Under the pieces are notes generated by a model. The model was not told the DNA's origin. It searched no databases and was given only the letters and a program-made list of their open reading frames with translations. 64,000 bases of DNA from Asparagopsis taxiformis (taxonomy: Eukaryota > Rhodophyta > Florideophyceae > Bonnemaisoniales > Bonnemaisoniaceae): positions 62,001 to 126,000 of the forward strand of contig JALQPE010000100.1 of the NCBI GenBank assembly GCA_030407315.1. The letters are read 5' to 3'. Position numbers and translations under genes: made by a program. Shown here in pieces: positions 10,341 through 60,633 of the stretch. Each line of letters begins with the position of its first letter. Positions within the stretch are counted from its first letter, which is position 1.

Positions 10341-10404
10341 CTGTCACGCAGTCGCGGAGGGTGCATTTTGGACGGTGTGAACACCCACCGCTGCAGCGTG
10401 ACAG
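10341..10404. repeat. Imperfect 23-bp stem, 18-nt loop
   Basis: The arm at 10341-10363 (starting ctgtcacgc) pairs with 10382-10404 (ending gcgtgacag) in about 19 of 23 positions, leaving an 18-nt loop. It sits in AT-rich sequence upstream of the recombinase element. It may be an element terminus, a small folded RNA or a MITE remnant; the sequence does not decide. Confidence 0.65.
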
Positions 10405-30033: not shown

Positions 30034-33000
30034 ATGGCGAACGCTGGCTTTCGCCTATGTCAGGTTTTCATTATAGCGTTCCTCCTGATTGCCTGCGGTT
30101 CTGCACAGGCGGTACGTACGCCTCCGATTGTAAAGTCCCTCCTGGAGTTTTCGAGGCGCAGACAGGCTGATAACTTCTGGTTTGGAAAATCACAGGAAAC
30201 TTCCAGACTGGTCTTGTGTAAAGGTGACGATGATTGCGATTCCAGTTCCTGCGTCAGCGGTACGTGTGTTGAACTACATGGAGATGAGTTGCAGGTTTTG
30301 CACAGAAATTTCAAGAAACGAGAGGAATGTATGTATTGTGAATATGCGTGGCAATGCTACTCGAATGTTTGCTGGCAGAATAAATGTTTCAAGCAGACGT
30401 ATTCTTCCAAGCGCAAATGCTACGGTGCCAAGGAATGTGAGCAATGTCAAGGAGATGGAGACTGTCAACAGGGCCGTTGCTGGAATGGAAAATGTATTTT
30501 CAGTGATGTTAATGCATGCTTCTATAAGAAGACTGAGTGCCAGAACTGCACAGCGGACAACCAATGCGCTCACGGTCTGCTCTGTAAAACTGACAAACCG
30601 GGCGGCACTTCCCTCTGTGCGACAGTAGTGGGTGTGGGCGAAAGTTGCTTGAACCCTTGCCGCATCTGTGAGCCGGGGTTGAAATGTCAAGATGGCGCAT
30701 GCGCAAAAGCGAAGAATGACATATGCGGACCGTGCCATTCAAACGAACATTGTGAGACGGGGCTCGTATGTAAGGACATGGACAATACGGGCATTTGCGC
30801 AGAACCCAGGGAAGCGGGTAAGCGCTGCGATGATCGCTGTTGGACGTGCCAGGAAAATCTGAATTGCGAAAAGGGAAAGATGTGCAAGGCAAGACATTGC
30901 GGACAATGTAGAGGAAACTACCAGTGCAAGGATTATGGTGGCTTTGTGTGCATCTCTGGAAGGTGCGCAAAGATTTCAGGTGTGAATGGTCTTTGCGGAG
31001 ACCCTTGTTGGACGTGTGATAAGGGCTTGACCTGTAAAGGTGCAGATGGGAAGACGTGTGAAAAGCTTTTATCAACGCGATGTGAACATTGTGTATCAAC
31101 TGAAGATTGCGTTACAGGAATGGAATGCAAGGCGGGTAAGTGTGCAACGCCAGTTGATGTTGGGGGTAATTGCTTGGACGCGTGCAATATTTGCAAGAAC
31201 AATTTGTTGTGTAAGAACGGCTCCTGCATTGAAGATCCTAATCTGCAGTGTGGCAAATGCTCGGCTGATGATGACTGTGAAGGGGACTCGGTTTGCATAA
31301 GCGGTGTGTGCCGAAAGACTGTGAAACTTGGAGGAAAATGCTCGGATCCATGTTCAATATGCAGCAGTAACCTTGTGTGTCACGATGGAAAAACATGCGA
31401 GATGCCTCCTGAGAAAGAATGTGCCGCATGTACTGACGATGGAAAATGTAACGAAGGATACACATGCAAGTCCGGTAAATGCGTTGTGGATATGGGACCG
31501 GGCAGGCCATGTTCGGAAGCATGTTGGAGTTGTCAGGCTGGGTTGATTTGTGCCGAGGACAAAGTGTGTCGGAAGCACGTCTCTCAGCAATGCGAGGCGT
31601 GTTCAACAGATGACGATTGTGCAGATGATCTGAGCTGTTCTTTTGGAAAATGCGCAAGAACTATCGGTATTGGCACAAAATGTTCAGACCCGTGCTGGAT
31701 TTGTGCTGATGGTCTTGTTTGCAACGGCGATGTATGCGAGAAAGCACCTGCAGAAATGTGCGAGCAATGCACAGAAGAATATGATTGTGCAACTGGTCTT
31801 ACATGCGTTTCCGGAAAATGTATCAAAACCAGAAAGGTCGGTGGCACATGTAAGGCCCCATGCGAGAGTTGCGATGAAAAGACTGTTTGCGACGGGGAGA
31901 CATGTCAATATCATCAGACGGCTCGATGTGGAAATTGTAGCGAGGACATTCAATGCAAGGGGGATCTGAAATGCGAATCTGGAAAATGTGTGAAGTTGGT
32001 CGAGTTGAACAAGGGTAGCTGTTCTCAAGAATGCCACATATGTGCCATTGGAATGTCATGCAAGAACAACAAATGTCGTAAGGATCAAAACGACGCTTGT
32101 GAGTCTTGTCAAAAGGATGCAGATTGCGCGGAAGGGCTCCGATGCAAAGAAGGAATATGTGCGGAACAGCGAGCGCTTGGCGAAAGATGCGATGAAAAAT
32201 GTGCGTCTTGCGAATACGGTCTGGAATGCAAGGACGGTAAGCAATGTGCAGCCACGCTCTGTGGAGAATGTATCAAAGACGAGGATTGCGTGGACGGGAC
32301 GGTCTGCAAGAGAAACACATGCACCACTGCTGTTGGCCTTGGAGAAAAATGCACACATCCATGCATCTCGTGTCAATCGGGACTGTTCTGCAAGGATGGG
32401 CTACGATGCGAGAAGGAGCGATCCGAAAAATGTGGCGAGTGTGCAACAGACGATGAGTGCATGGACGGTTTGAAATGCGATGCGGGTATCTGTGTGAAAA
32501 TTGTCGGAGTCGACCAGTTTTGTGCCGGGTCTTGCCAGAAGTGTAGCAAGGATCTGATTTGTGAAAATGGAAAAATATGTCGAAACCCGCGCGAGAAGAA
32601 ATGCGGTGTCTGTAACCACGATGAAGACTGCGAACACAATCTAAGATGTGCGCACGGAAAATGTCACAAGATCGTCTGGTCGCGTCAGCAATGTGGGGAT
32701 AACTGTACCAAATGTGGCGACGGCTTTGTCTGTATCGATTCGAATTGCCGACTGCGGCCGACAAAATCTAAACAATGCGGCGAATGCAGTACCAGACAGG
32801 ACTGCGAATGGCCATTAGATTGTCTTTCGGAAGTTTGCGTCCGCATCGGCCAGATCGGCGATGCATGTTCGGCGGAATGTTCCGAATGCGCGACAGGCCT
32901 CATCTGCAAGGGTGGGAAGTGTGCGAGGCATTTGTCGGAACAATGCGGTGTATGCGCGAAAGACGAAGATTGCGAAACGGGTTTGTCATGCTCGAATAGG

Positions 33001-33852
33001 CGTTGCATGAAACGAATGGGCATGGATGGCGATTGTTCGCAAAGATGTGTGACATGTGAAGACGGGCTCATCTGCCGATATGGAAGGACGTGCATGAAGC
33101 AGCCTGTAAAACCGTGTGGTATTTGCGACCAAACCAAGGATTGTATGACGGGGACAGTCTGCAGTGGGAACAAGTGCACACAATTGCTGGATGTAGGCGA
33201 CGCGTGTCCCGGGCAATGCAGCAAATGTGATTTCGGACTGTCATGTAACAACGGGGTGTGTGAAATCCCGAAATCGCCGGTATGCGCGCTGTGCTGGCAG
33301 GACGAAGACTGCAAACCGCCGCTGAAATGCCGGATAAAAGCAGATCTGGATGTCGGCAAATGCGCAACGGAAACGGGCAAAGGCGGCGATTGCTCGGACG
33401 AATGTTCTATTTGCGGGGCGGGACTTACGTGCGCTGACGGGACTACATGTACGGAGAAATCGGACAGATGCGGTCCGTGTTCGCGCGATGACAATTGTTT
33501 GGGTGATATGGTCTGTAAGCAAATCAGCACCGCGGACGGTTCGACGGGGAAATGTGCGACGACGGGCGCACTGGATGAAGATTGTCAAGATGAATGTTCG
33601 GCGTGTCATCGGGACAATCTGGCTTGTAAGGATGGCCGGAAATGTGCTGTGAAGAGCGGCAAATGTGGACATTGTACGAGTGATGATCACTGTGCGACCG
33701 GATTGAAATGTAGAATTGCTCCGGGCGCAAATAGAATCGGGCGGTGCGCTGTGCCTGTTGGTATGGGGGATTCGTGTGAGGATGCGTGCAGGATTTGCGA
33801 TGAAGGACTTGTTTGTAAAGATGGCACCACATGTACGTTGCCTGGCATGTGA
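30034..33852 (+). CDS. Large secreted Cys-rich repeat protein
   Basis: A single 1272-codon exon starts with a signal peptide (MANAGFRLCQVFIIAFLLIACGSAQA). The rest is about two dozen tandem modules of roughly 47 residues. Each joins a half of the type CGECATDDECMDGLKC to one of the type CSDPCSICSSNLVCHDGKTC. Cys, Gly and acidic residues are fixed and the linkers vary. The pattern suggests small disulfide-bonded modules like Dickkopf-N or EB domains and an extended extracellular rod, but the family assignment is only by resemblance. No membrane anchor is seen at the C-terminus, which ends within a module (CTLPGM). It shares a signal peptide and Cys-rich design with the gene 680 bp upstream, though without the acidic half. 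Confidence 0.85.
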   Translation: MANAGFRLCQVFIIAFLLIACGSAQAVRTPPIVKSLLEFSRRRQADNFWFGKSQETSRLVLCKGDDDCDSSSCVSGTCVELHGDELQVLHRNFKKREECMYCEYAWQCYSNVCWQNKCFKQTYSSKRKCYGAKECEQCQGDGDCQQGRCWNGKCIFSDVNACFYKKTECQNCTADNQCAHGLLCKTDKPGGTSLCATVVGVGESCLNPCRICEPGLKCQDGACAKAKNDICGPCHSNEHCETGLVCKDMDNTGICAEPREAGKRCDDRCWTCQENLNCEKGKMCKARHCGQCRGNYQCKDYGGFVCISGRCAKISGVNGLCGDPCWTCDKGLTCKGADGKTCEKLLSTRCEHCVSTEDCVTGMECKAGKCATPVDVGGNCLDACNICKNNLLCKNGSCIEDPNLQCGKCSADDDCEGDSVCISGVCRKTVKLGGKCSDPCSICSSNLVCHDGKTCEMPPEKECAACTDDGKCNEGYTCKSGKCVVDMGPGRPCSEACWSCQAGLICAEDKVCRKHVSQQCEACSTDDDCADDLSCSFGKCARTIGIGTKCSDPCWICADGLVCNGDVCEKAPAEMCEQCTEEYDCATGLTCVSGKCIKTRKVGGTCKAPCESCDEKTVCDGETCQYHQTARCGNCSEDIQCKGDLKCESGKCVKLVELNKGSCSQECHICAIGMSCKNNKCRKDQNDACESCQKDADCAEGLRCKEGICAEQRALGERCDEKCASCEYGLECKDGKQCAATLCGECIKDEDCVDGTVCKRNTCTTAVGLGEKCTHPCISCQSGLFCKDGLRCEKERSEKCGECATDDECMDGLKCDAGICVKIVGVDQFCAGSCQKCSKDLICENGKICRNPREKKCGVCNHDEDCEHNLRCAHGKCHKIVWSRQQCGDNCTKCGDGFVCIDSNCRLRPTKSKQCGECSTRQDCEWPLDCLSEVCVRIGQIGDACSAECSECATGLICKGGKCARHLSEQCGVCAKDEDCETGLSCSNRRCMKRMGMDGDCSQRCVTCEDGLICRYGRTCMKQPVKPCGICDQTKDCMTGTVCSGNKCTQLLDVGDACPGQCSKCDFGLSCNNGVCEIPKSPVCALCWQDEDCKPPLKCRIKADLDVGKCATETGKGGDCSDECSICGAGLTCADGTTCTEKSDRCGPCSRDDNCLGDMVCKQISTADGSTGKCATTGALDEDCQDECSACHRDNLACKDGRKCAVKSGKCGHCTSDDHCATGLKCRIAPGANRIGRCAVPVGMGDSCEDACRICDEGLVCKDGTTCTLPGM

Positions 33853-38780: not shown

Positions 38781-39242
38781 TTATTGGTTTCGAGCCAAGA
38801 GGCCTTGTCGGATTGTGTTGACCATAACGGCGGGGATGTACGGCGGGCACATGGAGAAAAAGGTGGAGACGGAATCGGCAACGGTCTGGAAGCTCATTAC
38901 ATTTGGCAGATTGAACTGTGCGCAAATGAGCAGTTGCTGAACCGGGTTTGCGTTGGCGTCATTGCACAAAAGGTCGATGATAGAGCCGGGGAATTGGGTA
39001 CCGGCAGGCGTCTGCACTTCGAAGCCGCCGAAAACGAGTACGCATCCGCAACGCACAAATTCGACCGGAAATTCACAGATTTCCGGGATGCGCTGCGAGG
39101 CTTCCGTCTCCGTCTGCCTTGCCGAAGTCACCTGCAGCGCATGCGTCGCGCTCACGCCGTGCTGCGAGCTATGTTTCGGGATCGCGCCATGCGCGACCTG
39201 CGACAAAAGTAGAGCCAGGCAGATGGAAAGTGCGAATTTCAT
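38781..39242 (-). CDS. Small secreted six-Cys family protein A
   Basis: The start at ATG 39242 gives MKFALSICLALLLSQVAHGA, a typical signal peptide, so the 153-aa product is extracellular or in the secretory path. After a short linker come six cysteines in the family pattern: C-EFPVEFVR-C-G-C, then gaps of 25, 13 and 24 residues to the last three. Hydrophobic stretches GSIIDLLC and QLLIC are shared with relatives. A TATA-like aatatata lies about 60 nt upstream (39300-39308). It is the first of seven paralogues in 11 kb. Function unknown; three disulfides and a compact helical fold are likely. Confidence 0.8.
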   Translation of the reverse strand: MKFALSICLALLLSQVAHGAIPKHSSQHGVSATHALQVTSARQTETEASQRIPEICEFPVEFVRCGCVLVFGGFEVQTPAGTQFPGSIIDLLCNDANANPVQQLLICAQFNLPNVMSFQTVADSVSTFFSMCPPYIPAVMVNTIRQGLLARNQ

Positions 39243-40387
39243 TTTGTGGCGGGCTGCTAATTCAATGCAACGACGGTTGCGGCAGGTTGTATGCAAGCTT
39301 CTATATATTGGGTTGTGTGTTGCAGTGCGAATGGTTGATGCTATAATTGTTTGGAAAACTTTCCGCAGATGTCATTGTACATGGCGGCGGTGTTGGCGCG
39401 GATAGGCTGGTTTGGTCGTTGGGCGGTTATTTATGTCTGACTATGGTGGAAAGCTGTTATGGTGAACATGGGGTACAATGTGAATGGTGCCGTATACACG
39501 TCTTTGGTATTCACGCTTGTGCGGTTGATGAGTGATGAAGCCATTACTCGGCGGAGCTGTCATGGAGAAACGCATGTCATGTAAATATATTTTGTACATA
39601 AATGACGGTCAAATTCCATTGGTGCAGTTCTGTGACGTGAACATTGGTTGGTGAACATTGCGAGCTTGTTTATTGGGGGAAGGCGTGGTGTTTTGCTCAA
39701 GGCGCTATTCCCGAAGAAATGAAAACGTGGCAGAGATATATGGCGGCAGTTTTGTCCATAGTTTATTCCAGGGCGTGCGTCGATGAACTTGCAACGATGA
39801 TGGAGAAGAGTGCGCGTGACGTTTGGAAGGGTTTGTGTCCCGCAACCCATGTCATGTATATTTTTTATCTTTTGAAACCTTTCAAAATCATCAATTTTGA
39901 ATAATTAATAGATGACAGGTAGATCGAGGTGTCCCATTACGGCTTCCAGTAAACGGAAGACAACTTGCACGGCCTCGATCATGTTTTTCGCGACAGTGGC
40001 GAGTAGAAATGTCATTCACGCGTCAAATGTGAATTAGCCGTAATGTTAATCAACTTGTAAGTTCTCCAAACAAAATGATCTACGGTTGATTCAAATGGCG
40101 TCCACGGTTCCGTTCTGAGATACGTGATTTTCTCTTCTGATATACCAAGTCCGGAAGCAATACTTACGATGCGTATATGATACAGGGAACAACTGTCAAG
40201 AACACTATTCCGATTGGAATTGTAAAACACTTAGAATGCCTCTTTGGGCGAATCCGTTTCCTGTAACATCCCGTTCCTACAATACAACAAAACCATGTAT
40301 AAAAACCCCTTTCCCGAGAGTAAATTTATTTTGTGGATGTAGCTAGCATCAGCCACTTATTCTTTCTACCTCAACTGCCGAAGCGCA
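39243..40387. other. Intergenic between family members A and B
   Basis: Contains the promoter of A at its left end. The short ORFs inside show neither signal peptides nor the six-Cys pattern. Confidence 0.4.
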
Positions 40388-40981
40388 CTAGGCGGCTGCA
40401 ACCGGCTCAACGCTGGCCTCTGGCGTGGGCGTGACAGAAGCCATTTGAGGTGGCGCTACCTCTTCGGCCATCTCACCAGCACACATAGTTACATACTGAG
40501 TAGCGAGATTTGTGAAAAACGTATCATCAGCATTGTTATCCTCGATAAACGTCGAACAATCAAGTTCCGAATCCGTATCGGCACATCTCGACTCGATGAA
40601 CATACCACCAAAAGGACCGAGCGCACTCTCCTGAATCTCTCCATCGGCGACCAGGACGCACGTGCAGTCGAACAACGGCTCCGAATCCTCACAGGACTGG
40701 TCGCCTCCGAAGGGATTGATGAAGGCTGGCAGGGAGGGAAATGCTGGCAGCTGCGGGAGTCCAGGGAACGCCGGTAGACCCGGCAACTGGGGGAAGCCGG
40801 GGATCTGCGGGAAGGCAGGAAGCTGAGGAAGGCCGGGTAATTGCGGAAACTGAGGAGCAGCGACTGTGGGCGTTGGGGTGGGGTCATTCGACTCTTCTTG
40901 TCGCATGGTACCACGGGCCACTGCTGCGTGTGAGCATTGTGAGAGAACAAGAAGTCCGAAGAAGATGAAAGCGGTTTTCAT
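40388..40981 (-). CDS. Small secreted six-Cys family protein B with Pro-rich spacer
   Basis: ATG 40981 gives the signal peptide MKTAFIFFGLLVLSQCSHAA. Unlike its relatives, the 197-aa product has a Pro/Leu/Phe-rich spacer (about 44-90) of LPxFP and LPGLPQ units between the signal peptide and the Cys domain, encoded by imperfect DNA repeats at about 40730-40860. The domain keeps C-EDSEPLFD-C-T-C and the x24 gap before the last Cys, but the fourth-to-fifth Cys distance is 8, not 13. An acidic segment and a Pro/Glu/Ala tail end the protein. TATAAAG lies at 41077-41083, about 97 nt upstream. It is the most diverged member; the spacer may act as a rigid linker or wall-binding part (inference). Confidence 0.75.
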   Translation of the reverse strand: MKTAFIFFGLLVLSQCSHAAVARGTMRQEESNDPTPTPTVAAPQFPQLPGLPQLPAFPQIPGFPQLPGLPAFPGLPQLPAFPSLPAFINPFGGDQSCEDSEPLFDCTCVLVADGEIQESALGPFGGMFIESRCADTDSELDCSTFIEDNNADDTFFTNLATQYVTMCAGEMAEEVAPPQMASVTPTPEASVEPVAAA

Positions 40982-42480
40982 ATCGGTGGTTGAGATGGAT
41001 GGTTAGAGTGATGGGTGTTGAGAGAGCTGTAGTGTGTGTTGTGATAAATCTTGTGTCGAGGGGCGATAGCTCCGGGCTTTATATTGAAAATAATCGTGGT
41101 GTGATGCGCCCGATCCGGCCTGCTGAGTACGTGTAGTGACGAAGTGAATCTAATTTGGCTAACGGCCCACGCCGAGCTGGCAGGTTTAGTGAAACGTGTT
41201 GATTTCACCAGGACATATGTAAAGTTTATCCTTTCTGGAAACCTGGGTGTGTTTCTGGACATTTGTAGCCTACCAGGGTGCTGATGTACCGGTAATGGGA
41301 CTGCCGCAGATATTTTCGCAGAGGGGGGAGTGAAAGACTGAAAATGGGTCCAATACCCACGTTGCAAGATAACATAAATCTTAAATCTGATCAGAGGGGC
41401 CATGAGATGCGGATATCAAAGTTGTTCAGGAGTGAATCTACGAGTGTTTGACGTGCTTTCTGTGGTTTGAAGGGTGTCGTTTACGAAGATCGATTAAAAC
41501 TACAAGGATTATGTTTAAAGGACTGTTAGCAGCATTGATTTTTTCGTTCCGGTATGTATGCCAGAAAGATGGCATAGGGATGTGTAATACTGTCCCAATT
41601 TGGTTTTCGCTAGCTGTCTAACAGTGCTTATCGGTAGCGGCTAGTTGGAGTCGATGAATATGCTAAATAAGTTGACAGCTAAACGTCTTGTTCCCGCATA
41701 GCATTCTAATAATATAAAAATATCTATTTTTACCCGTGTTTGGAATATCAAGTCAATATTATTGACTTGAAAGGAAGAACAGTGCAGAGGGAAAGCTCTA
41801 TAGGGGTAGGACCTGTTCTTCTTCTCTCATCAGTCTCCTCTGTGTACGATACGTATATTCTTGTCTGTACTCTCAATTTATATGGCTAATGCATAGATAA
41901 AGGAGCCACCCGACGCACTATTTCTTCCATCGGGGTTTGTCCTCGCAAGGTGTCCTGTCAATCTCAAACATCTATGCTGATACAATCTTCTCGTCCACGC
42001 ATGCCTACCGAGTGACACCAGAAGATCCCGTATCATACCATTAATATATTTCCCTCCATCGTGTCCAACTTGGACAGACAGAGAGCACATAAACACAATC
42101 CTCAACGACAAGAGTGTCTTTTCAAGCGAAGAAAATGACACGCTCCGCGGCTCTTGAAACCTTTTCCGGACAGTCTTCGGGCGTCCAAAATTCAACCAAT
42201 TTTTAATTTTCCCCGGAACTTGCCATACTCAGACGGCGATGTCGCATGCTACGCCGTGCGACATCTTCCTCGAGAAAATAATCAAACTTGCAAACCACTC
42301 ACTGCCAACGCAACATGTTCAAAGCGCGGCACAAAGTTGACTCGAAAGTTGTCACTGTTCTAAAATAATCGCAGTCCATGCGCGCATGATCTGCAAATTT
42401 CCTTCATCTATATATGCGACTACGCACAAACCAGCTGAACAAGTGCTCATACGCACCAGAACCAAGTAATCGCACCCAAA
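40982..42480. other. Divergent intergenic region between B and C
   Basis: It holds TATA-like boxes for both neighbours (minus at 41077-41083, plus at 42409-42415). A 105-codon minus ORF at 41878-42195 lacks the family cysteines. No gene supported. Confidence 0.4.
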
Positions 42481-42906
42481 ATGAGGCTCGCTTTCGTTGT
42501 ATGTGCCCTCCTTCTTCTTTCGTCCGCAGCATTCGCGACGCAAGAACACAATAATGGAGTATTTGGCTTGCTGCGCGTGGTGAGTAGAGCACTCATCAAA
42601 CAATCTTCGCTCAAGCAAGAGACAATGGATGACTCTATCGACGTTTGTACAACAACGCAAAATCTCTTCCGTTGCCTTTGCATTGGCGTGTTTGACGGCC
42701 TTCAAATTCCGCAATTTTCAGAAAACGCTCCCGTTGGTTCCATTATTAATGACCAATGCGCACCAGCTCTTGCAAATCCCATCGATCAACTCAACGTCTG
42801 TCTCGACTTTTTGACGACAACTCTTATCACTCCTCAAGTGATCGTCGATCTTTCAACATCGTTTTTGGCAGAGTGTCTTCCGACTATCGTGACTGGAATT
42901 CTGTAG
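42481..42906 (+). CDS. Small secreted six-Cys family protein C
   Basis: The 141-aa product starts with the signal peptide MRLAFVVCALLLLSSAAFA and has the domain C-TTTQNLFR-C-L-C with gaps 25, 13 and 24 to the later cysteines. It shares GSIIND, ANP and the hydrophobic helix-like end with member A and is probably its closest relative. It is the only member on the plus strand. TATATAT lies at 42409-42415, about 70 nt before the ATG. Role unknown, presumably extracellular. Confidence 0.8.
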   Translation: MRLAFVVCALLLLSSAAFATQEHNNGVFGLLRVVSRALIKQSSLKQETMDDSIDVCTTTQNLFRCLCIGVFDGLQIPQFSENAPVGSIINDQCAPALANPIDQLNVCLDFLTTTLITPQVIVDLSTSFLAECLPTIVTGIL

Positions 42907-43463
42907 GTAGCTTGTTCTGACAATGATCAACTGCTCGCGCAACTCTTAGGGAATAATTAAGACATTTCATTCATTTTGAAGAATTTTGCTCTATGTAAAC
43001 AACGTTTGGACGTTTTCTCATGCCAAATTCCAGTTGAATGCTGCGCTACCAATACTGCGACTTTGAAATTTTTTTCAGTTTATGTGGCAATTGTTCAGAT
43101 ACGACTGAAATTGTCAGAGTAGTAAAATCATCCGCCTACATTTCTGGAGTGACTTGTATGGTCACAGCTTCAATCTGAATATATCCGGGCATAAACTATG
43201 CGGTGAAGTACGTTGACACTTTCAAAGCGTAAGACTCGATTTCATTCCTTCTCAAGCGATCTGGTTTAAAGAATAAAATTGTTCAAGACTTTACATGAAA
43301 ATAGAATCCCCAATTTTAGTTTACATTATGAATCGTAGCATAGAAGAAATTCCTGAAATACCCGCCAATCATCAATTCATCGGCATGAATTTAAACAGTA
43401 GAAGAGCTCTCAGATCGATATACTCGAAACAAAGATAGAGTATCGGAAGAAGAAAAGAAAAGA
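42907..43463. other. Convergent 3' region of members C and D
   Basis: AT-rich with no ORF of note; the flanking genes converge here. Confidence 0.4.
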
Positions 43464-43952
43464 TTACAAGAAGACTCCGGCGGCTTCTATGAGCGTGACA
43501 ACCGGAAGTACAGGGAGGCATTGATCATTGAACTCATTTAAAAGCTCCCCAACTCTTTCAATTGATATTTCAGATCCGGTGATCGTAGTCGTACAAAATG
43601 CAAACTCCGTAAAAGGACTTGAAAGTGCGTCGTCGCACAAAATTCCTACTGCTTTATCCAACGCCCCCTCGGGACGTGCCACATCTAGTGTTTCAAATAC
43701 CAAGATGCAAACACATCCGATAAATCGCTTCACATTTTGACAAAACTGAGGTAAAAGTGCCATGCTTAACTCATCCAAATCTTGTTGTGTGAACGCATCC
43801 GGAAGATTGTCAAACCCATCTTCCTGTCGGACGGTCGATCGTTTCCCAAATTGAAATCTTTTTAAACTTTGAGCTTCAAAGCTTATCGGGAACGAGTGAA
43901 CTGCGGTTAGAGAACACACTAGTAACAGGAGGAAGGAGAAAATGGTTTTCAT
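43464..43952 (-). CDS. Small secreted six-Cys family protein D
   Basis: ATG 43952 starts the signal peptide MKTIFSFLLLLVCSLTAVHS. The 162-aa protein has a longer polar region (22-68, with a KRS site) before the domain C-QNVKRFIG-C-V-C, with gaps of 23, 13 and 24 to the last three cysteines. The end is hydrophobic (PVVTLIEAAGVFL). A TATA-like box lies at 44030-44037, about 80 nt upstream. Function unknown. Confidence 0.8.
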   Translation of the reverse strand: MKTIFSFLLLLVCSLTAVHSFPISFEAQSLKRFQFGKRSTVRQEDGFDNLPDAFTQQDLDELSMALLPQFCQNVKRFIGCVCILVFETLDVARPEGALDKAVGILCDDALSSPFTEFAFCTTTITGSEISIERVGELLNEFNDQCLPVLPVVTLIEAAGVFL

Positions 43953-44860
43953 TTCGATGTGCGTCAGACGAAAACAAAACGGCGAGTATCAAAATTCTTG
44001 CAGCAATTATTCTTGTGGTTCAAGATAACATTTATATGGTGTAGTAATGAGTTATGGGTAAGGGTGAGCAAACTTTCTTGTATCCCAAGGTGCCAGCTAC
44101 AGCAATTATGAAAATTTACGCGTAGCATTGCAATGGATGAATAAAAGGAGACTTAGTGTCACGGGCCATTTCGGATTGTATGTGCATAGATTAGTCTCTC
44201 AGAAATTAGCTACGGACAACGTTGCCATGATAGTGGCTCCAAAAATTTTCTAAGCAGTTTGTTAGTGGTAATGTGTGGTTGTGCTTCAGGAAATATGTGA
44301 AAGTGCGGAAGAAATAAAGAGTGATACTGGGATTACTGGAAGCCATCAGCGAAATGCAAAACATGGTTGAGAATTTGACATCACTGTAAAAAGATGGAAG
44401 CCAAAGTTGCAGGCACTCACCAACAGTTATGGAATGGCGCTGTATTCTAGCTTGCCCGTTGCTTCGCCATAGTACACTAACATGTGTCATTTTTCTCAGA
44501 TTTCACATTGTGCAAGATGACGAACTTCTGCCATACAGATGCTGGGCAACTTGATGTCCAATAAGTTGCCGAGTAGAAAATCCAGTACTGAAAGATGTCT
44601 TACTCGTGGTGAAGCCCCAAGGGATTACTACTTATCAAGATATGGTTTAACATTTCGCGAAAGAGTAGAAATATTACTCATCCGAATTCATCATCGATAA
44701 ACCCATGCTGCGACATCAAAGTTCAAACACTAATTCGAAATTCATCCCAACTTCTTGTGCACTTGAGCAGCAGACAAGCGGAAAAATATCATTTTGATGT
44801 GAATGCTGTGACTGAAGGCTGTGGAGGAATTATAATTGACCTCTCTGAAAACAATGGATA
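43953..44860. other. Intergenic upstream of member D
   Basis: Holds the promoter of D. A 94-codon minus ORF (44206-44490) shows no family features. Confidence 0.4.
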
Positions 44861-45052
44861 TCAGAAAATGGAATAAACTGATAGATCAGGGAAGTTGTCG
44901 AAGCGGACCATAGTTTGAGAGGCATATACGGCGCAAAATTGAGAGTTTTCACCACATTCTGACAGATTGTCATAGATCATTGCCAGTAGTTCTAAACTTG
45001 TCGTGTAATCGTGCATGATGAGCAGTTGTCCAGAAGTTGTGACTGAATTCAT
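44861..45052 (-). pseudogene. Decayed six-Cys family member
   Basis: The 63-codon ORF aligns without gaps over 31 residues to member E just upstream. MIYDNLSE corresponds to MIDDVLPP, and YASQTMVRFDNFP to CACQTIFRFLNLP, with about half the positions identical. The C-x8-C-x-C cysteines have been replaced. No signal peptide is attached, and the frame stops after the domain start, so this is the remnant of a tandem duplicate of member E. Confidence 0.65.
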
Positions 45053-45230
45053 TAGTGATCTATTTTAGTTTCTAAGGATATAGCGATGACAAAAAGTGAA
45101 ATGCTTCTAGCACAAAACGGAACACCCTCCGGTAAACAATAATGTTCAACTCGGTTCGTCAGCATCTTCAACCTAAGTGATAATCCCATTGTTACCAAAA
45201 CAATTTTGTGGTGGATGTTTCTTATTTATG

Positions 45231-45743
45231 TTACTTCTGTCCAGAGTAAATCCTAGCGGGTGAACTTTCAAAATCCACCGCAAAGTTCTGAGCGAATTCC
45301 AGTACGCTAGAGCTTGCAAACAGCGGGAAACAATTTGCGATAAAGGTCGATGCAGCGGTTGTGAAAACATCGACAGAGACAGGGTTGTTTGTCGTGATAC
45401 GTATGCAGCTATTGAGCACCAATTCGGGTTCGTTGAAGCCCTCCCTGCAGAGGAGGCGCATAGGCAAACCGAGTGGACCAGTTGGTGCGGGAAGGTTGAG
45501 GAATCTGAAAATAGTTTGGCAGGCGCATGCCGTAAAGAATTGGAAATCTTCGCAGAAGGGCGGCAGGACGTCGTCGATCATGCCCTGCAGGTCCGTGACG
45601 GTAAAATCCTGCTCCGGGAATCGACTCTGTCTTTCTGTCACAAGGTTACGAAGTGTGGGGACCTCGGATATCATTGCGCCGCTTCTCGCGGACGCTGACG
45701 TGACGCCCAGGAAGAGGAGGGAGAGAAGAAGTGCGAAATTCAT
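45231..45743 (-). CDS. Small secreted six-Cys family protein E
   Basis: ATG 45743 gives the signal peptide MNFALLLSLLFLGVTSASA. The 170-aa product has the domain C-EDFQFFTA-C-A-C with gaps 23, 13 and 24, preceded by a helix-like acidic stretch (DLQGMIDDVLPP) also recognisable in member D. The C-terminal extension of about 35 residues is longer than in the relatives. A weak TATA-like ttgtatat lies about 85 nt upstream. A decayed copy lies 180 bp downstream. Function unknown. Confidence 0.8.
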   Translation of the reverse strand: MNFALLLSLLFLGVTSASARSGAMISEVPTLRNLVTERQSRFPEQDFTVTDLQGMIDDVLPPFCEDFQFFTACACQTIFRFLNLPAPTGPLGLPMRLLCREGFNEPELVLNSCIRITTNNPVSVDVFTTAASTFIANCFPLFASSSVLEFAQNFAVDFESSPARIYSGQK

Positions 45744-47414
45744 CTTTGCCGATGGATGTTGGGCGGCGTTTTCTGAATGTGTTCGGAGTGCTTTAACGAG
45801 ACGGACGCATGATTGATGGGGCTTTTGTATATGTTGAGGTTATGGAAAACTTTCCAGTGTTGGGGGTTTTTAGAGAAACATATTACAGGTGTGGACAGGG
45901 TGGTGATTGGGATTGGAGGAAGGATGGACAGATGCTGATAGATGGTGAAAGTTGTGGCTGATTGAGATGTTTGACCTCGAATTTGTACGATTTGTGATGT
46001 TTTTTAGTCTGTGGTTCTTTATCTGGGTGTGTATCGGACAATGCTCGGACGCTGGCAGTGATGCGTGAGGTTGAGCTTTATGTTCACCGGATAGAAATAT
46101 GTTTATGTTCAGACATGGATGGCATCGTCATGTGCTGGCACAGTGGCTAGTTGGCAAACATTTTACAGCTGTCCTCCTCTTTCTGTAAACTGCAAAAACT
46201 GTACACTACTGACATGTCATATAGTTCTCAGTGTACGGCATACGTACACAAGTGTCGCAACCGTCGAAGAATGCGAATGCTTGCACTGTAAATCAACGCT
46301 CCGGGTCTCCACTTATTTTAGCGACAACGGGTGCGTCGCGTACCGGCCCTGACCTCATCCTCTTCTTCGGCCGCCAGGTCATTTCAACGGTTTCGCATGT
46401 CACGTGCTACAGTCTACATCATCACAGGGTATCCGTCATGCACATGGTCTTTGTGCTGAAATAGCCTTCAAAACCAAGTATGGTTCAAGGCGTGTCTCAG
46501 CGACATTTTGTTCGCATGGTGGAGAAATGCATGAAATGACAAGATTCAACTCGTGTCTGGCGTCGTCGGATTCATTTTTGGTCGATACTGGACTAGAAGA
46601 GTGACGTTCTACCTATGCACATTCCACACAACAGCACTGCTGATATGGAGTACACGCAGTGCGATTGTGAGGATTGTGCATCTATAGATAGTCAATTCTT
46701 CAAGAGCAGCTCGCGTTCGAGGACATCGATCGTGCCTGCAATTATTCGAGAGGTTCATCGATAGTAGGTTTCAACAAGTGAAACAATTCTGTAGCTTTGA
46801 TATGGTTAGAAATGTAGTACTTGCAGTACGACTACGCGATACGCATCTGTGGATCGGATGCCTCGCAGCGGTAACTACACTGCCTAATAGATGTTTAGGC
46901 GCGGTAAACGAACAATTGTTCGGCAAGCAGGTCTTGTAATGACTTTGTGCTTCCCTATGTAGTAAACTTCTCCGAATTACAATCTCGTCGCGAATACAAA
47001 GAGTGGGAGCCAAATGTTAACTTGCATGACGAGAAGCGGCTCTGGTAAATTGATCAGTAAAACCTGAAATAAATTGATTTTAAATGCAAATCTTGTACTC
47101 ATACACGACAGCAGCAGCAATAATGTTGAAATTGAAACACCATCATGACAAGGCTAAAAGCTGTTGGTTGATGAAGATCGAATCTCTTCAAAACCACCAA
47201 CGAAGCGCACACACACTACAACAGCAGCAATTCGATACACCGATACGTCATTCCAGCATGAAACCTAAGCCCGAAAGACTTTACGACGACAATCACCCGA
47301 CCGAACAATGCAACATTCTAAACCAACACAACAAAACTGTTAACAAAAACAACCTACAACGCAGCACAGCCAATCCAAGCAAGCACGCGCATCTGAAACC
47401 AGCCACCATTCGCG
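45744..47414. other. Intergenic between members E and F
   Basis: Only short ORFs, none with a signal peptide or the Cys pattern. Confidence 0.4.
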
Positions 47415-47927
47415 TCACACGAGAGGCGTAGGCGATTCCGCGTGGGGTGCATTTTCCGAAACAAGCGTGCCTGTGCACGTCGAAATAAACTGTTGAACAA
47501 AATGCTCGATACCAGCCGGAGTCAAATCATGCTCCCGCGAATACTCAGTGCATGCCACAAGTGCCATGACACGGTCCGTGTAAGCATCAGCGCATTGCAG
47601 CATGAAAAAAGTCGCGCCGACGCCGGTGCGTCCCGAATTGGAAGACATTAAATTGTGCGTACGTAGCAAACAACCGCACCCGACCAGTTTCTTCAGCCCG
47701 GTGCACATCGCGGGTACATCGGACTTTCCGCGACACTCGGAGTCGCCGATGGAGTTTTGGCACGGACGCGGGTCGATCGTTATGCTTGGTTGACTCGGAT
47801 TTGTTGGTAGATACAAGTTGATTTCGTGAGGTGGAGCTTCACGTACGACTATCGCGCATATTGTGCGCTGGCATAGGAGCACTGCGACCGTTAGGAGTAG
47901 GAGAGGACGCGTCTTGGAAGCAGTCAT
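47415..47927 (-). CDS. Small secreted six-Cys family protein F
   Basis: ATG 47927 opens a 170-aa protein with the signal peptide TRPLLLLTVAVLLCQRTICA. The domain is C-TGLKKLVG-C-G-C with gaps 25, 13 and 24. Two further cysteines (about residues 56 and 65, PCQN and ECRG) occur before the core and are not shared. It is closest to member G, with the common patterns C(G)C-L(I)L, GVGATFFMLQC and ALVAC. A TATAAAC-type box lies about 100 nt upstream. Function unknown. Confidence 0.8.
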   Translation of the reverse strand: MTASKTRPLLLLTVAVLLCQRTICAIVVREAPPHEINLYLPTNPSQPSITIDPRPCQNSIGDSECRGKSDVPAMCTGLKKLVGCGCLLRTHNLMSSNSGRTGVGATFFMLQCADAYTDRVMALVACTEYSREHDLTPAGIEHFVQQFISTCTGTLVSENAPHAESPTPLV

Positions 47928-49025
47928 GTTGGATAATTTAGAAAGTTAGTGGGATGCTGAAGGGCGTTGTTGGTGTGGTTGTTAGTTGTGATCATAGAGG
48001 TTTGTGTTGCTGCTTTGGCTTTGGTTTATATTGTTTCGTCGTCGTCAGTGATTTATGCAAGCTTGCAAACTAGGTGATTTTGCCAGCGTGAAGCGACATA
48101 TATATTCAGAGTAGCGCTGTTTTACAGGAGGTAACTGTTCGGGCCGAGAATTGATCTCGTTTCACCTTCAATCTCCGATTTTCCTGTGCACATAAGCTAG
48201 CCCTAGAAACCATGAGGGCTTTTGTACAGCGGTTTGTTTGTGGAACATGATCTTCTGTAATCATAGAGATGATGGTGTTTCCTATTTTGAATGGACTATG
48301 ACGTGCCTTGGCTTCGCAACGCAAACCACTGTCCCCTGCTGACGCACGTTGATATCCTATCCACGAATCCATTGATTTTCATTTCCTGAATAGTACAACC
48401 TTTACAAAAGAGTAGCACCAGAGCGCTTGGAGTTGCAAGGTAATCTAGTCACTATTCTCTGACGAGTTTGGACAACATGAGCCTCTGTCGCGGGCTGTGA
48501 TAATTTTGAAATTGTTTGGTTTGCTCCAAACAAAGCTGGGCAACTCAAAACTTTGTTTGGTACTTTCTGGAGGGATACACGAGGTGGAAACTGGTGTGCA
48601 GTCACGGAATGTCGCAAAAGAAGTTATAGGAATAATATGTTGTAAATGAGAGTGCAAAATAAGCAGCAGTGTTTAGGATCGAAAATAGGTCATTGCTTGT
48701 TGGGACGACGACATGGCTGCCACTAGGGCGATATAAAAAAGTTTGCATATGCACTGTAAACAAACATTTTGGTGTGAGGTGGCCAATGCAGGAGGCAAGC
48801 GTCAAAGTGGAGGGAGAACTGGACACTGGTTGGAGATACCTTTGGGTACCTTTGGGCAGCTCTGAAGACAGCGTTGAGCGACCAAGATTCAGTGGCAACA
48901 TGGATCACAGCGCTCTGCCGCAAAAAGCACTGGAAAAATATGAAAAATAAACGCCGCAAAGTAGGGTATTACACAAATCATAGACAAAGCTTTACCATAT
49001 CATATTACGACCAAATACACCCATG
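47928..49025. other. Intergenic between members F and G
   Basis: No supported gene. ORFs below 100 codons overlap on both strands. Confidence 0.4.
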
Positions 49026-49547
49026 CTAATCCAACAACCTGCTCACTCCGAGCACCAGCCGCTGCCCGGGCGGCAAGTCAATACACCGACGCACATAATT
49101 ATTCATACTATTCACAACGCGGCGTGCATTAAACAATCGCACCGTCGAGAACTGCGCGCATGCGATCAACGGCATGAACGGCGACGCAAGTGCGTCCGGG
49201 CATTGCAGCAGAAAAAACGCCGTCACACGTCCGATATTCGACGCCTCTGTCGGCGCCATGAGCCCCTGTGTGATAAGGATGCAACCACAACTAACGAGCG
49301 GTTGAATATTCCTGCAAAACCGTCCGTTTCTCCGAAACGCGCCCGACGGCGCTGGTAGTGTGATAATTTTATCTTGCACATCCGGCGTGGGCGTGATCGC
49401 AATATCGACCTGTTGACGCCCCGTTTGAACCACTTGTCCCCAATAACGCGCCCATTGCGCGTCCCGGTCTATCGGAGTGCCGCGTGCCGGCTGGACGCAC
49501 AACACGACCCCGAGGAGGAGGAGGAGGGAGAGCTTCGAGACGCGCAT
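49026..49547 (-). CDS. Small secreted six-Cys family protein G
   Basis: I start the gene at ATG 49547 (MRVSKLSLLLLLGVVLCVQPARG, signal peptide) rather than at an earlier Met that would put 15 polar residues in front. The 173-aa product has the domain C-RNIQPLVS-C-G-C with gaps 26, 13 and 24. It resembles member F in the core (FFLLQC, LIAC) but is more basic. The GC content is higher than in members C and D. TATAAAG lies at 49632-49638, 85 nt upstream. It is the last member of the cluster. Confidence 0.8.
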   Translation of the reverse strand: MRVSKLSLLLLLGVVLCVQPARGTPIDRDAQWARYWGQVVQTGRQQVDIAITPTPDVQDKIITLPAPSGAFRRNGRFCRNIQPLVSCGCILITQGLMAPTEASNIGRVTAFFLLQCPDALASPFMPLIACAQFSTVRLFNARRVVNSMNNYVRRCIDLPPGQRLVLGVSRLLD

Positions 49548-51316
49548 GATGAGTTTGGTGGCGTGCGGATTTGGAGAATGTATGGTGTGCAATTTCTGTC
49601 ACGCCCGTGGAATCTTTCGCGTTTGATGAAGCTTTATATCATCGTTGCGCGCTGACTTGCCCGCGTCGAGGCGGGAAAGGTTTCTCAGCTCGCCGAGCTG
49701 GACATGGGCCTGCGCACTGGAGGCTGGCAATACTGCACTGGGACGCGTCGGGCGCGGGCACAATGCGCAGTGCTGAGCTGAGGCTGCATGTTCTTGGCCG
49801 TGAGATTTGGTATAGCCTTGGATTTTTTCGGGGGAGTGGAAGGATTCAGGAGTGATGGGCGACAGAAAACATACAGTAGGATGGACGATTGGGAGGTTGC
49901 GATTATATTTAATTTTGGTTTTTGGGTATGATGATTTTATTTTGGAAGCAATTATAAAAAATATTATTTCTGTGTTTTGCGTTTTCTGCAAATTCGCCCT
50001 CGCAGAATTGCGCGAGTTGTGCACGGCTGTACCCTACGGCCTCGACCTTTATTACGTTCGATACGGCCAAAACTGCTCGTCAACGCGGGAGAGTGCTCAT
50101 ATCCTTGCATGAGCTGTTCATCGTGCCAATTTGTGTGATGTGCGTCAATATGTCACGGCCTGTAAGCGTTAGTAATGAACTGCATTAGTTACATAGGTGG
50201 TCGAAGGGTTTACTAAAAAAGCTGATGTCGGCATATCGGCACTCATTTCACCCGTGCCTAATACTGCACATGCCACGCGTATATCTACACCTTCGAAAGA
50301 AATGACGACGGTTAAATTTTGCATGAGGAATTTTACACGTGCATCTTAGTTATTGTTGTCTTGCCTCCGTCGATGAGAGCATTCCGGTTAAGACGTAGAA
50401 ATAAACCCCGCATACTCTCGCAGTGCGTCGCAATTATTGGCAAAAAGTTGTTGCCCACTCTTGCACAGGAGAACCGCCGACAATTGCTTAGAGATGATGT
50501 GACGCCACGCCTGAGATCCATGTGTAGTAAGGTTAGTCTGTATAGAATGCTCACTATTCGAACATTATCTCCTGACGACTTTTCTCGCCGACGATCAAAC
50601 CCCGCCTCGCGCTCCCATCGCACTGCACTGCACAGCAGCAGCTCAACTTACAGTCCAATTGAATGTCTACTCCCCCTGAAAGAGGCTGAACTTACCAACT
50701 TAGCCTTATTGGCACTTCACACTTGTATGACGCTTGTTCGGCCAGCAGAGAAGCGCTTTCAATGCATCCCCTTTTCATACTATGCAGCACAGAAATCGAT
50801 GCAGATTTCCCCGCCGTGCTCTCCACAGAACATAACAGTTGCTTGATCACATTTCATCCATGTTTCCCCTGCAAACCATAATTAAAGTTGTCATTCAATT
50901 CTGATTCGTCGTCATACGCACACGTCACGCTCTTTTCGACTCATTTCCCACATCTGCAATAAGGGCTACCAATGCCCAGCAAAGAGAGTACAACAGACAT
51001 CACGCTATCATATAAGTAGGACAACTAAATCATGCTACCAGCTCTGTGGATCATTGCTGGTTCACCACTCCTCAATAACCCCTCCCACCACTTCCCTGCT
51101 ATCGATGCAAATCTTAGCCAATCGTCGAATCTCTTCCGCTCTTCTACTCCTCGTTGTCTCTCACCATGCCCTACGCGTGCCCCCTTTACGCCCTCCATCG
51201 CCAGCGTCTCTCAGCTTGTAACTCTTGCGTAACCTTTCCATCTCGCTCTATAAAACACCACCACCTATCCCTTCCCACCAGTCCATTCGCCATCACAACA
51301 TCAACACATCCCGATC
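49548..51316. promoter_or_regulatory. Intergenic with TATA box of the haem peroxidase gene
   Basis: TATAAAA lies at 51249-51255, 62 nt before ATG 51317. The rest holds only unassigned ORFs, the longest 175 codons at 50319-50846 on plus with no domain I recognise. Confidence 0.5.
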
Positions 51317-52993
51317 ATGGCTCCTAAACTCCTCTTCATCTCAGCCATTCTGGCTCTTGTCGCCTCTATCAATGCCCAGTCTTTCGAGGCTCCCCCAGGC
51401 TCCAATGAATTCAACCCCATTGTTCCTGGTTCCCCGGCCTTCGAGGAAATCATCAGAACTAACTGCGAAATCTCTGCCAGATTCTTCGATGGAACCTGCA
51501 CCAACCCCGCTAACCCGATCTACGGTCGTTCCAACACTGCCGTCTTCAGCTACGTCGAAAACCTCTCTTCGGAAGTATTCAACGCCCGTGGACGCCCCAA
51601 CCCTCGTCTTATTTCTAACGCAATCTCCGACCAGGAAGGTCTCATTTTCAACGACAGAGACATTAATGAATTCTTCGTCTTCTTCGGCCAGTTCCTCGAC
51701 CACAACCTCGTCCTCTCCCTTGTTGATTCACCGGATGATTTCGTAAATATCGACGTCCCAGCCGGAGATCCTGACACAAACGTACCACGTTTCGAATTCC
51801 GTCGTAACGCCCGTGCTCCAGCTCCTGGAGAGCGCTCCGGCACTGAACGCGCGCAAAACATCATCTCCCAGATTGTCGATCTTTCTGCAGTCTATGGCTC
51901 TGATGACGAGCGTGCAAAAGCACTCCGCACCATGTCAGAGGGCCGCATGAAGGTCAGCAGCGGAAACCTTCTCCCTCTCAACACTGAGGAACTCGAAAAT
52001 GACCCCAACGACGACGATACCTTTTTCGTCGCTGGTGATCCTCGATCAAATGAAACCCCTATGCTTTCCGTCTTGCATACTATCTGGCTTCGTGAGCATA
52101 ACAGCATCATTGATGAACTTCTCTCCTCTAGCACATTCAGCAGCTTGAGCGATGACGGTCTGTATGAACTTGCTCGTAGGATCAACATTGCTCAGTTCCA
52201 AAAGGTCGTCTTCGAGGAGTTCTTCCCCGCCATCATTGGACGATCTCTTCCTGCCTACAGTGGCTTCGACGATAGCGTAAACCCCACGGTCAGTAACATC
52301 TTCTCCACGGCCGCCTACCGTATTGGTCACACTATGGTTGGCAACGGTGTGCAGATTCTCGAAGGCTCCCGACGCCGTGTGATTCCCATCACTGAAATGT
52401 TCTTCCAGAGAGCTTCATTCATCCAAGGACTCGGCGGAATTGATTCTTTGCTTCGTGGTGCCCTTACAACGCGTGCTCAGGAAGTCGATGGAAAGGTTGT
52501 GGATGCTCTTCGCAACAACCTGTTTATTAATGTTCCTGAAAATGGCGATGACTTTGATCTGATTTCCATCAACATCCAGCGTGGCCGTGACCACAATGTT
52601 CCTTCGTACAACGAAATTCGTGAAATCTTCGGCATTCCGCGTGCACGATCCTTCAGTGACATCAGCACCGACCCCGATACCATTGCTAGATTCGAGTCTG
52701 TCTATGACAACGTCGACCAGGTTGACGCCTGGCCTGGTCTGGTCTCTGAGGATCACGTTGCTGGAAGCTCTGTCGGTCGTACGATGAGGGCCGTCTGGAT
52801 TGCCGAGTTCACTCGCCTCAGGGATGGTGATCAGTTCTACTTCAGGAGGAACGGTCTGTTCAGCCCGCCGCTCCGAAGCCAAGTTGGCCGCATCAGGGCT
52901 GCTCTCAGCTCCCGCCCGATCTTCCGTGATATTGTTGTCAGAAACTCTGGCTTGAGGCGAAGCCAGGTGCCGAACAACCCGTTTTTCATTTAA
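51317..52993 (+). CDS. Secreted animal-type haem peroxidase
   Basis: The 558-aa single-exon product has a signal peptide (MAPKLLFISAILALVASINA) and a full peroxidase-cyclooxygenase superfamily domain. Seen are the distal His129 in FFGQFLDHN, VDLSAVYGSDDERAKALR (188-204), catalytic Arg259 with Glu260 in WLREHNSIIDEL, the proximal His338 in FSTAAYRIGHTMV, and IQRGRDHNVPSYNEIRE. Such enzymes use hydrogen peroxide to oxidise halides or organic substrates, here outside the cell. The residue after the distal His is Asn130, where animal enzymes usually have the calcium-binding Asp. Asp128 and Glu260 match the residues that can bond haem covalently in mammals. Codon use is smooth and no lesion is seen. 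In an alga it would suit oxidative defence or halogenation (inference). Confidence 0.92.
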   Translation: MAPKLLFISAILALVASINAQSFEAPPGSNEFNPIVPGSPAFEEIIRTNCEISARFFDGTCTNPANPIYGRSNTAVFSYVENLSSEVFNARGRPNPRLISNAISDQEGLIFNDRDINEFFVFFGQFLDHNLVLSLVDSPDDFVNIDVPAGDPDTNVPRFEFRRNARAPAPGERSGTERAQNIISQIVDLSAVYGSDDERAKALRTMSEGRMKVSSGNLLPLNTEELENDPNDDDTFFVAGDPRSNETPMLSVLHTIWLREHNSIIDELLSSSTFSSLSDDGLYELARRINIAQFQKVVFEEFFPAIIGRSLPAYSGFDDSVNPTVSNIFSTAAYRIGHTMVGNGVQILEGSRRRVIPITEMFFQRASFIQGLGGIDSLLRGALTTRAQEVDGKVVDALRNNLFINVPENGDDFDLISINIQRGRDHNVPSYNEIREIFGIPRARSFSDISTDPDTIARFESVYDNVDQVDAWPGLVSEDHVAGSSVGRTMRAVWIAEFTRLRDGDQFYFRRNGLFSPPLRSQVGRIRAALSSRPIFRDIVVRNSGLRRSQVPNNPFFI

Positions 52994-59775: not shown

Positions 59776-60633
59776 TTACTCTTTTATTGATTCGTCCATA
59801 TCCGCATGAACATTTGTCTCCTTACTTCCCATGCGCTTTATCATTTCGGACATCTGATGCAGCAATTTATTTGTTGGTTGGAGGTTGCGCGCTATTTCTT
59901 CTTTAACAACCTTTTTTATGTCCTCTTCTGTCAAGGTTGATGAGACATTGACAATACCGACAACTGCTTGGGAAAGCTGGCCAACGTTTTCTGCCATCTC
60001 ACCAACACTATCAAGCAAAACATTATCGGACTTAGAGCTTTTCGAAGATGTATGCAGTCCAGTGCTTCCCATTCTGAGCTTCTTTTTATGTCTTTCATTG
60101 TGCTCCATGGCAGTTCCTTCCAGTAAATCATAACCATCCCGCCCGACCGCCCCATCATTGTCTTCTTCTGAAGTTCCATCGTCACTACCGAGTACTTTTG
60201 CTGGGCATTTATTCTGAATGTCTCTGGAAATTTTCTTAGCTCTTCGAACATGCGGAGGACAAGACGGGTCACCTGTCTTCTTCTTACAGTTTGCGAGTTT
60301 GTCAAACTTGTTCTTAATCGAATCTTGATCTCTAAATGTGTTGTCCTGGTCTTCAGACCACTTCGCGAATTTATTTGCCACTAGTGCCCAGTGGTTTGAG
60401 CCAAGCGGAAGAACTTCGGACACAATGTCAAGAAGGTGGTCCAATTCGTCATTAGAGTAGTTCGGAACCCCAGCTCTGGTCTGACGTCGCTTTCGCGCGT
60501 TTGGCGTCACAGCCAAAACAGAGTGCTGAGCGCCTTCCTCAATCGGAGTTAAGGTTACTGTTGTATCTTCACCTTGTGTCACTACGTCATCAGATGCTAC
60601 AGGAATTGTTGTGGATGGGGGAAGTGAACTCAT
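59776..60633 (-). CDS. Harbinger-associated Myb/SANT-like DNA-binding protein
   Basis: The 285-aa ORF starts at ATG 60633. After a basic stretch (ARKRRQTRAG, 46-55) comes a Myb/SANT-like domain (about 56-135): NYSNDELDHLLDIVSEVLPLG, HWALVANKFAKW, then SIKNKFDKLANCKKKTGDPS with HVRRAKKI. This pattern resembles the DUF6818 type known from transposon partners in protists; the name is from memory and tentative. An acidic linker and a C-terminal helical region (225-275, possible coiled coil) follow. In Harbinger elements this second protein binds the transposon ends and helps the transposase enter the nucleus. It is intact although the transposase is broken. Confidence 0.8.
   Translation of the reverse strand: MSSLPPSTTIPVASDDVVTQGEDTTVTLTPIEEGAQHSVLAVTPNARKRRQTRAGVPNYSNDELDHLLDIVSEVLPLGSNHWALVANKFAKWSEDQDNTFRDQDSIKNKFDKLANCKKKTGDPSCPPHVRRAKKISRDIQNKCPAKVLGSDDGTSEEDNDGAVGRDGYDLLEGTAMEHNERHKKKLRMGSTGLHTSSKSSKSDNVLLDSVGEMAENVGQLSQAVVGIVNVSSTLTEEDIKKVVKEEIARNLQPTNKLLHQMSEMIKRMGSKETNVHADMDESIKE

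Follow-up and report, generated by a model that had tools for sequence, protein, structure and literature searches.

A Clustered Family of Putatively Secreted Six-Cysteine Proteins in the Red Alga Asparagopsis taxiformis

The genome of the red alga Asparagopsis taxiformis encodes a genuine family of six-cysteine proteins. At least 14 genes, spread over four contigs, belong to it, and seven of them are clustered in the DNA analyzed here. This stretch of 64,000 nucleotides, called the window, corresponds to bases 62001–126000 of contig C100 (JALQPE010000100.1; 281,219 bases) in the assembly GCA_030407315.1, which contains 141,494,207 bases in 3156 contigs. The proteins can be classed as a new family among small, putatively secreted cysteine-rich proteins. 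Tentatively, they can be read as secreted prepro-proteins whose mature form would be helical and stapled by disulfides, and would serve as a carrier of hydrophobic molecules or as a coat for them, acting like plant non-specific lipid transfer proteins (nsLTPs) without being one of them.

Evidence for a Six-Cysteine Family

The seven open reading frames (ORFs) in the window, designated A–G, are each complete from ATG to stop, six on the minus strand and one on the plus strand. Their cysteine frame is C-x8-C-x-C-x(23-26)-C-x13-C-x24-C, the fourth gap being x8 in B. When the ORFs and gaps were rechecked, the coordinates, spacing and mixed strands were all as the first-pass annotation, made from the letters of the window, had described. 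Its secretion-like leaders and uninterrupted frames were also borne out: all seven proteins have a hydrophobic N-terminus (best 11-residue Kyte–Doolittle mean, 2.65–3.41), from which export is predicted. Single-exon genes make up 64.32% in the published lineage-6 assembly of A. taxiformis, according to the available portion of that report (PMC12115072).

The strict pattern is seen six times and the loose pattern seven times in the window, while 100 first-order Markov sequences together contain no strict and one loose match. Residue shuffles inside real open frames of at least 80 residues (200 rounds) generated 18 strict and 282 loose matches in total. The loose matches thus arise 1.4 times per round against seven observed, indicating that the loose spacing by itself is not an extremely rare event. 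Hold-one-out profiles recovered 14 of 14 members at 25.4–84.5 bits. The best non-member among the 484 open frames of the window reached at most 10.5 bits, with frames whose coordinates begin like a member's filtered out of the non-members.

Single-sequence searches of the 141.5 Mb genome added seven non-allelic members: three on contig C2529, two on C4 and two on C1764. Contigs C1677 (99.8–99.9% DNA identity to C4) and C1034 (99.1–99.2% to C1764) were dropped as likely haplotig copies. Four later genome queries brought no further members, and the member counts are lower bounds. Outside the window, the third gap is 25 in all seven members; five of them have a last gap of 24, one has 23 and another has 22. 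The x24 gap, claimed earlier to be constant, is thus constant in the window but not elsewhere. All 14 members share a hydrophobic N-terminus and the frame C-x8-C-x-C-x(23-26)-C-x(8 or 13)-C-x(22-24)-C. Membership is least certain for B, which, among eight single-sequence genome queries, was reached by its own query only.

Members in the Window

The cysteine gaps are 8, 1, 25, 13 and 24 in A, C and F. A (153 amino acids (aa); 38781–39242, minus strand) and C (141 aa; 42481–42906, the sole plus-strand gene) have cysteines at the same residues, 56, 65, 67, 93, 107 and 132. A contains an RQ element with Arg 42, and the pro-region of C contains KQS and KQE; their held-out profile scores are 65.2 and 77.3 bits, respectively. 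In F (170 aa; 47415–47927, minus strand; 46.8 bits), an additional C-x8-C pair (Cys 56 and 65) precedes the domain, and [RK]Q is missing. D (162 aa; 43464–43952, minus strand; 57.9 bits) and E (170 aa; 45231–45743, minus strand; 44.2 bits) share the gaps 8, 1, 23, 13 and 24, and their elements are RQE and RQS, respectively. G (173 aa; 49026–49547, minus strand; 52.5 bits), with the gaps 8, 1, 26, 13 and 24 and an RQQ element, is the sole basic member, with an isoelectric point (pI) of 9.5.

B (197 aa; 40388–40981, minus strand) has the gaps 8, 1, 24, 8 and 24 and the lowest held-out score, 25.4 bits. A proline-rich, LPxFP-like linker lies between its RQE element and the cysteine domain, and its tail contains PTP. 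It is possible that the linker and the tail serve wall anchoring.

Pro-Region and Composition

In 12 of 14 members, [RK]-Q is present in the segment that separates the leader from the first domain cysteine; it is absent from F and C2529_1. In 2000 shuffles of the same segments the mean was 3.1 and the maximum 8, although the pro-region motifs were picked after inspecting the sequences. Eight members have [RK]-Q-[EDA] and seven have [ST]-[LVAIM]-[RK]-Q. [RK]-Q is possibly a processing site, exposing an N-terminal Gln that would cyclize to pyroglutamate. If the leader is assumed to be 20 residues, the pro-segment is around 22–76 residues long. The domain spans around 70–80 residues from the first to the last cysteine (C1 to C6) and is followed by a short tail; several tails beyond C6 are short and hydrophobic. 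The parts after the last RQ are 96–170 residues long. Counted from the alignment, Pro is found at three residues before C1 in ten of 14 members, and C-x-P follows C6 in ten. The divergence outside the cysteines described by the first-pass annotation is real among paralogs, but some conservation exists in these two positions and in [RK]Q.

The grand average of hydropathy (GRAVY) of the domain plus tail is positive in 13 of 14 members, from +0.11 to +0.96, and −0.06 in B. The net charge of the same part is negative in 13 members, which have 0–6 Lys/Arg there, and Trp is absent in all 14. Eight comparison ORFs of the same genome with leader-like starts have GRAVY values from −0.23 to −0.90; this set is small, consisting of five haem peroxidases, two ORFs with cysteine repeats and one 558-aa ORF, and two of the eight are close paralogs by their leaders.

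Database and Fold Comparisons

No family-wide match was found in Pfam, NCBIfam, PDB sequences or PDB folds, consistent with the first reading that no named family has this spacing. In the hmmscan of the 14 members, none of the four Pfam families listed is an LTP, elicitin or saposin family; the HMMER filters discard most matches above about 0.1. Literature searches found no description of such a family. In its available part, a study of A. taxiformis counts 332 proteins as predicted to be secreted and mentions a VWA family by name (PMC12115072). The genes of the present family may be among these 332 proteins, unnamed.

The AlphaFold2 models of C (mean predicted local distance difference test score (pLDDT), 66.2; predicted template modeling score (pTM), 0.46) and A (mean pLDDT, 68.9; pTM, 0.62) are both all-helical. 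Both alignments contained the same nine proteins, the seven window members and two close relatives described below (P0001 and P0002), with C or A as the query. The helices at 37/39–51, 53–63/66, 71–84 and from 86 agree in both models, and their borders match closely after the first helix. By position, C1–C3 fall in or at the first helix (in the A model this helix is broken), C4 falls in the second long helix, C5 in the third, and C6 at the junction ahead of the last helix. In 22 of 26 windows, the family-mean hydrophobic moment is larger at 100 than at 165 degrees. The predicted fold of the domain is a bundle of some five helices, which three disulfides presumably hold together. A common fold, which the first-pass annotation proposed as a check, may be indicated by the agreement of the two models on most helix borders, but the confidence is moderate and two members only were modeled. 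A convincing match for the models of A and C was absent from the structure libraries; for the C model, the PDB was compared via the VIA second look, in addition to BFVD.

Close Relatives and Divergence among Paralogs

Searches of around 5.8 billion proteins returned five relatives (P0001–P0005), 94.6–97.4% identical to five of the 14 members. P0001, which is partial, corresponds to F (97.4%) and P0002 to B (97.0%); the further counterparts are C1764_2 (96.5%), C1764_1 (96.1%) and C4_2 (94.6%). These relatives could be orthologs of their counterparts. The 14-row query missed P0003–P0005, which the 4-row query found, indicating that the search sensitivity is limited. The check on lineage restriction proposed by the first-pass annotation is answered in part, with five near-identical relatives returned at this sensitivity; as far as could be tested, the family appears lineage-restricted.

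Over the compared stretches, which leave the longer C-terminus of P0005 outside, the relatives differ from their counterparts at 27 sites, of which 21 are conservative (BLOSUM62 ≥ 0). Every covered domain cysteine is retained in the five relatives; the whole stretch between C1 and C6 is unchanged in the relatives of F (from residue 94) and of B. The C1764/C1034 haplotigs have zero single-nucleotide polymorphisms (SNPs) in 897 coding nucleotides of two genes versus eight in 1200 flanking nucleotides. Five single-base coding indels in this pair look like assembly errors.

The identity of paralogs to C4_1 is 20–46%. In the tree, one of 11 inner branches is starred, that of C4_1 and C1764_1; F and G are at 94/95, and the four genes of C4 and C1764 at 89/95. 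This tree is consistent with old duplications. The mostly conservative changes in the relatives and the SNP-free coding haplotigs indicate that the divergence of paralogs looks old and not currently driven. The description of the family as fast-evolving is thus not supported, even though the paralogs are divergent.

Upstream Elements

A TATA-like box is located 65–103 nucleotides upstream of ATG in all seven window members. It is TATATA in A (−65; 39302–39307, minus strand) and C (−72; 42409–42414, plus strand), TATACA in E (−88; 45826–45831, minus strand), and TATAAA in B (−102; 41078–41083), D (−84; 44031–44036), F (−103; 48025–48030) and G (−91; 49633–49638), all four on the minus strand. 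Within 300 nucleotides, 12 of 14 genes have such a box, the exceptions being C2529_1 and C2529_2. The chance of TATAW in a random 60-nucleotide stretch is 0.08. A TATA-like word lies within 300 nucleotides of seven of 15 other ORFs too, so the box reported for each gene is present but not special to the family.

The sequence GAAAGTT is found on the sense strand within 300 nucleotides upstream of eight of 14 genes (A, C, D, E, C4_1, C2529_3, C1764_1 and C1764_2), always upstream of the TATA box. It is found on neither strand in 15 other ORFs (11 from the window and loci, and four haem-peroxidase loci). Within 200 nucleotides, it is present in six of 14 genes versus 0.42 expected (uncorrected binomial P = 1.7e-6); the word was chosen after inspection, and P is around 0.03 allowing for all 7-mers. 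In addition, GGAAAGTTTTCC has two copies in the window, one upstream of the TATA box of A (39353–39364, minus strand) and the other upstream of that of E (45844–45855, minus strand). GAAAGTT and GGAAAGTTTTCC suggest a common regulation of the members.

Other Features of the Window and Genome

An animal haem peroxidase gene with a leader-like start (51317–52993, plus strand; PF03098, E = 6.1e-121) is located 1.8 kb from the cluster. PF03098 stretches are seen 55 times genome-wide, including four on the contig of the window. These peroxidases, and the many single-exon genes of the published assembly, would agree with a red seaweed. Two ORFs of 651 and 1272 aa (27402–29357 and 30034–33852, both plus strand) have leader-like starts and many short cysteine repeats, with no Pfam match at E ≤ 0.001.

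The region 10288–12352, around 2 kb, is 95.3% identical to C2529:30001–32056 (the compared piece of C2529 begins at 30001), around 2.4 kb from the family cluster on that contig. It is probably a mobile element. The 374-aa ORF at 11548–12672, assigned to this region, has no Pfam match and is, by eye, presumably a tyrosine recombinase. A 1719-aa Sel1-repeat ORF (1024–7013, minus strand) is overlapped by a similar-looking 279-aa ORF. Two consecutive ORFs at 20526–22450 (plus strand), the first without a Pfam match, resemble an ionotropic-receptor-like channel by eye, and a DUF6818 protein (E = 1.2e-12) is encoded at 59776–60633 (minus strand). The bromoform locus was sought genome-wide, and no contig had both PAP2 and NAD_binding_6 matches.

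Comparison with Known Systems

The family resembles plant and green-algal nsLTPs in being small and multigenic, in having CxC, and in its predicted secretion, helical bundle and cysteine stapling. The eight-cysteine motif (8CM) of nsLTPs is C-Xn-C-Xn-CC-Xn-CXC-Xn-C-Xn-C in the available part of PMC9832785. The C-x-C-x(23-26)-C-x13-C of the family is similar to its end, in the order CXC-Xn-C-Xn-C (PMC9832785). The 8CM is absent: all 14 members have six domain cysteines and lack a CC pair there. No LTP family is among the four Pfam families listed. Unlike nsLTPs, the family has an extra C-x8 in front and x24-C behind, and is mostly acidic, whereas nsLTPs are basic.

Oomycete elicitins, which are sterol carriers, are secreted helical proteins of around 100 residues with three disulfides, ending roughly C-x14-C-x23-C. 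The end of the family frame, C-x13-C-x24-C, is similar, but the first half of the cysteine pattern is different. No elicitin match is among the Pfam families listed for the 14 members, and the PDB sequence search revealed no relative. An elicitin fold is not among the PDB matches listed for the models, a comparison too limited to rule one out. Saposin-like proteins are helical and have six cysteines with middle gaps of about x25, x10-11 and x23, paired C1–C6, C2–C5 and C3–C4. The corresponding gaps of the family are x23-26, x13 and x24, but three cysteines precede the long gap (two in saposins) and one ends the domain (two in saposins). No saposin family is among the four Pfam families listed. 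Fungal hydrophobins are small, secreted, very hydrophobic, cysteine-stapled and beta-rich, with eight cysteines and two CC pairs. The family shares the small size, high hydrophobicity, and predicted secretion and cysteine stapling with them; its six-cysteine domain is without CC in all 14 members, and its fold is predicted to be helical.

Possible Functions

In the carrier or coat mechanism proposed above, the leader would direct export and the pro-segment would carry [RK]-Q. Cleavage there would leave an N-terminal Gln, to be converted to pyroglutamate. The mature protein would be a compact, hydrophobic and usually acidic domain, stapled by three disulfides, with a short tail. It may act extracellularly on hydrophobic molecules, for example secreted metabolites or the lipids of wall or cuticle, which it would carry or cover, and separate members may serve separate ligands or settings. 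A hydrophobic, mostly acidic, cysteine-framed helical domain kept in several old lineages points to the binding or covering of hydrophobic molecules, not to a classical cationic antimicrobial peptide. In the available part of PMC9832785, nsLTPs were sought by the 8CM in seven red-algal genomes and none was found, which makes a functional substitute plausible.

Several facts weigh against this mechanism. B (GRAVY −0.06, net charge −21), F (GRAVY +0.11) and G (pI 9.5) deviate from the common composition. No carrier fold is among the PDB matches listed, and both models, built on nine-row alignments, are of moderate confidence at best (mean pLDDT 66 and 69; pTM 0.46 and 0.62), so that any cavity is hypothetical. 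A surface coat or a membrane-active protein would account for the hydrophobicity equally well.

The nearest rival to the carrier reading, although rather unlikely, is that the proteins are structural proteins of the cuticle or wall surface, assembling on the thallus exterior as hydrophobic stapled units like hydrophobins. The positive GRAVY in 13 of 14 members and the proline-rich linker of B would agree with this reading. Protein is 37.6–44.4 wt% of the cuticular region in red algae, as given in the available part of PMC8701067, citing Craigie 1992. Large differences among paralogs are unexpected for a single coat. Besides, the domain is predicted to be helical, unlike the beta-rich hydrophobins with their eight cysteines.

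It is unlikely that the members are secreted defense or anti-epibiont proteins kept diverse through duplication. Clustered divergent paralogs on a fixed cysteine frame, the short hydrophobic tails past C6 in several members, and the haem peroxidase gene with a leader-like start 1.8 kb away would be consistent with it. The defense role suggested by the first-pass annotation is weakened in the antimicrobial-peptide sense, because 13 of 14 members are net negative with 0–6 Lys/Arg, unlike cationic antimicrobial peptides. The conservative nature of 21 of 27 changes in the close relatives, and the allelic pair without SNPs in 897 coding nucleotides against eight in 1200 flanking nucleotides, also argue against it.

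Doubtful as well, and distinctly improbable, is a role as extracellular signaling or recognition ligands freed by a putative [RK]-Q cleavage, for example in gamete recognition or development. The [RK]-Q element of the pro-region, the divergence of paralogs and the GAAAGTT element common to eight of 14 genes can be counted for it. The parts after the last RQ (96–170 residues) are large for peptide hormones, and fast evolution, often seen in recognition proteins, is not apparent in the close relatives. Finally, that unrelated ORFs share their spacing by chance or assembly artifact is practically negligible: the loose spacing does arise 1.4 times per round of residue shuffles, and B is recovered by the family profile only, but the profiles recovered every held-out member, near-identical relatives sit on other contigs, and the longest contig listed for two of these relatives has the same length, 4106 bases, which would agree with a single contig that carries both C1764 genes.

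Implications

It can be speculated, with low confidence, that the family represents an unrecognized extracellular carrier system of (some) red algae, which replaces nsLTPs and, in Asparagopsis, may transport or sequester secreted hydrophobic compounds, halogenated metabolites for example. Should its role prove to be in defense or recognition, the family would nevertheless be a new secreted scaffold in red algae, for which few such scaffolds have been described to our knowledge. The seven genomes without nsLTPs in the available part of PMC9832785 raise the question of the route that lipids and hydrophobic metabolites take across the wall and cuticle of red seaweeds. A family of 14 genes with a recognizable anatomy makes this question testable, and supplies a profile for searching other red algae.

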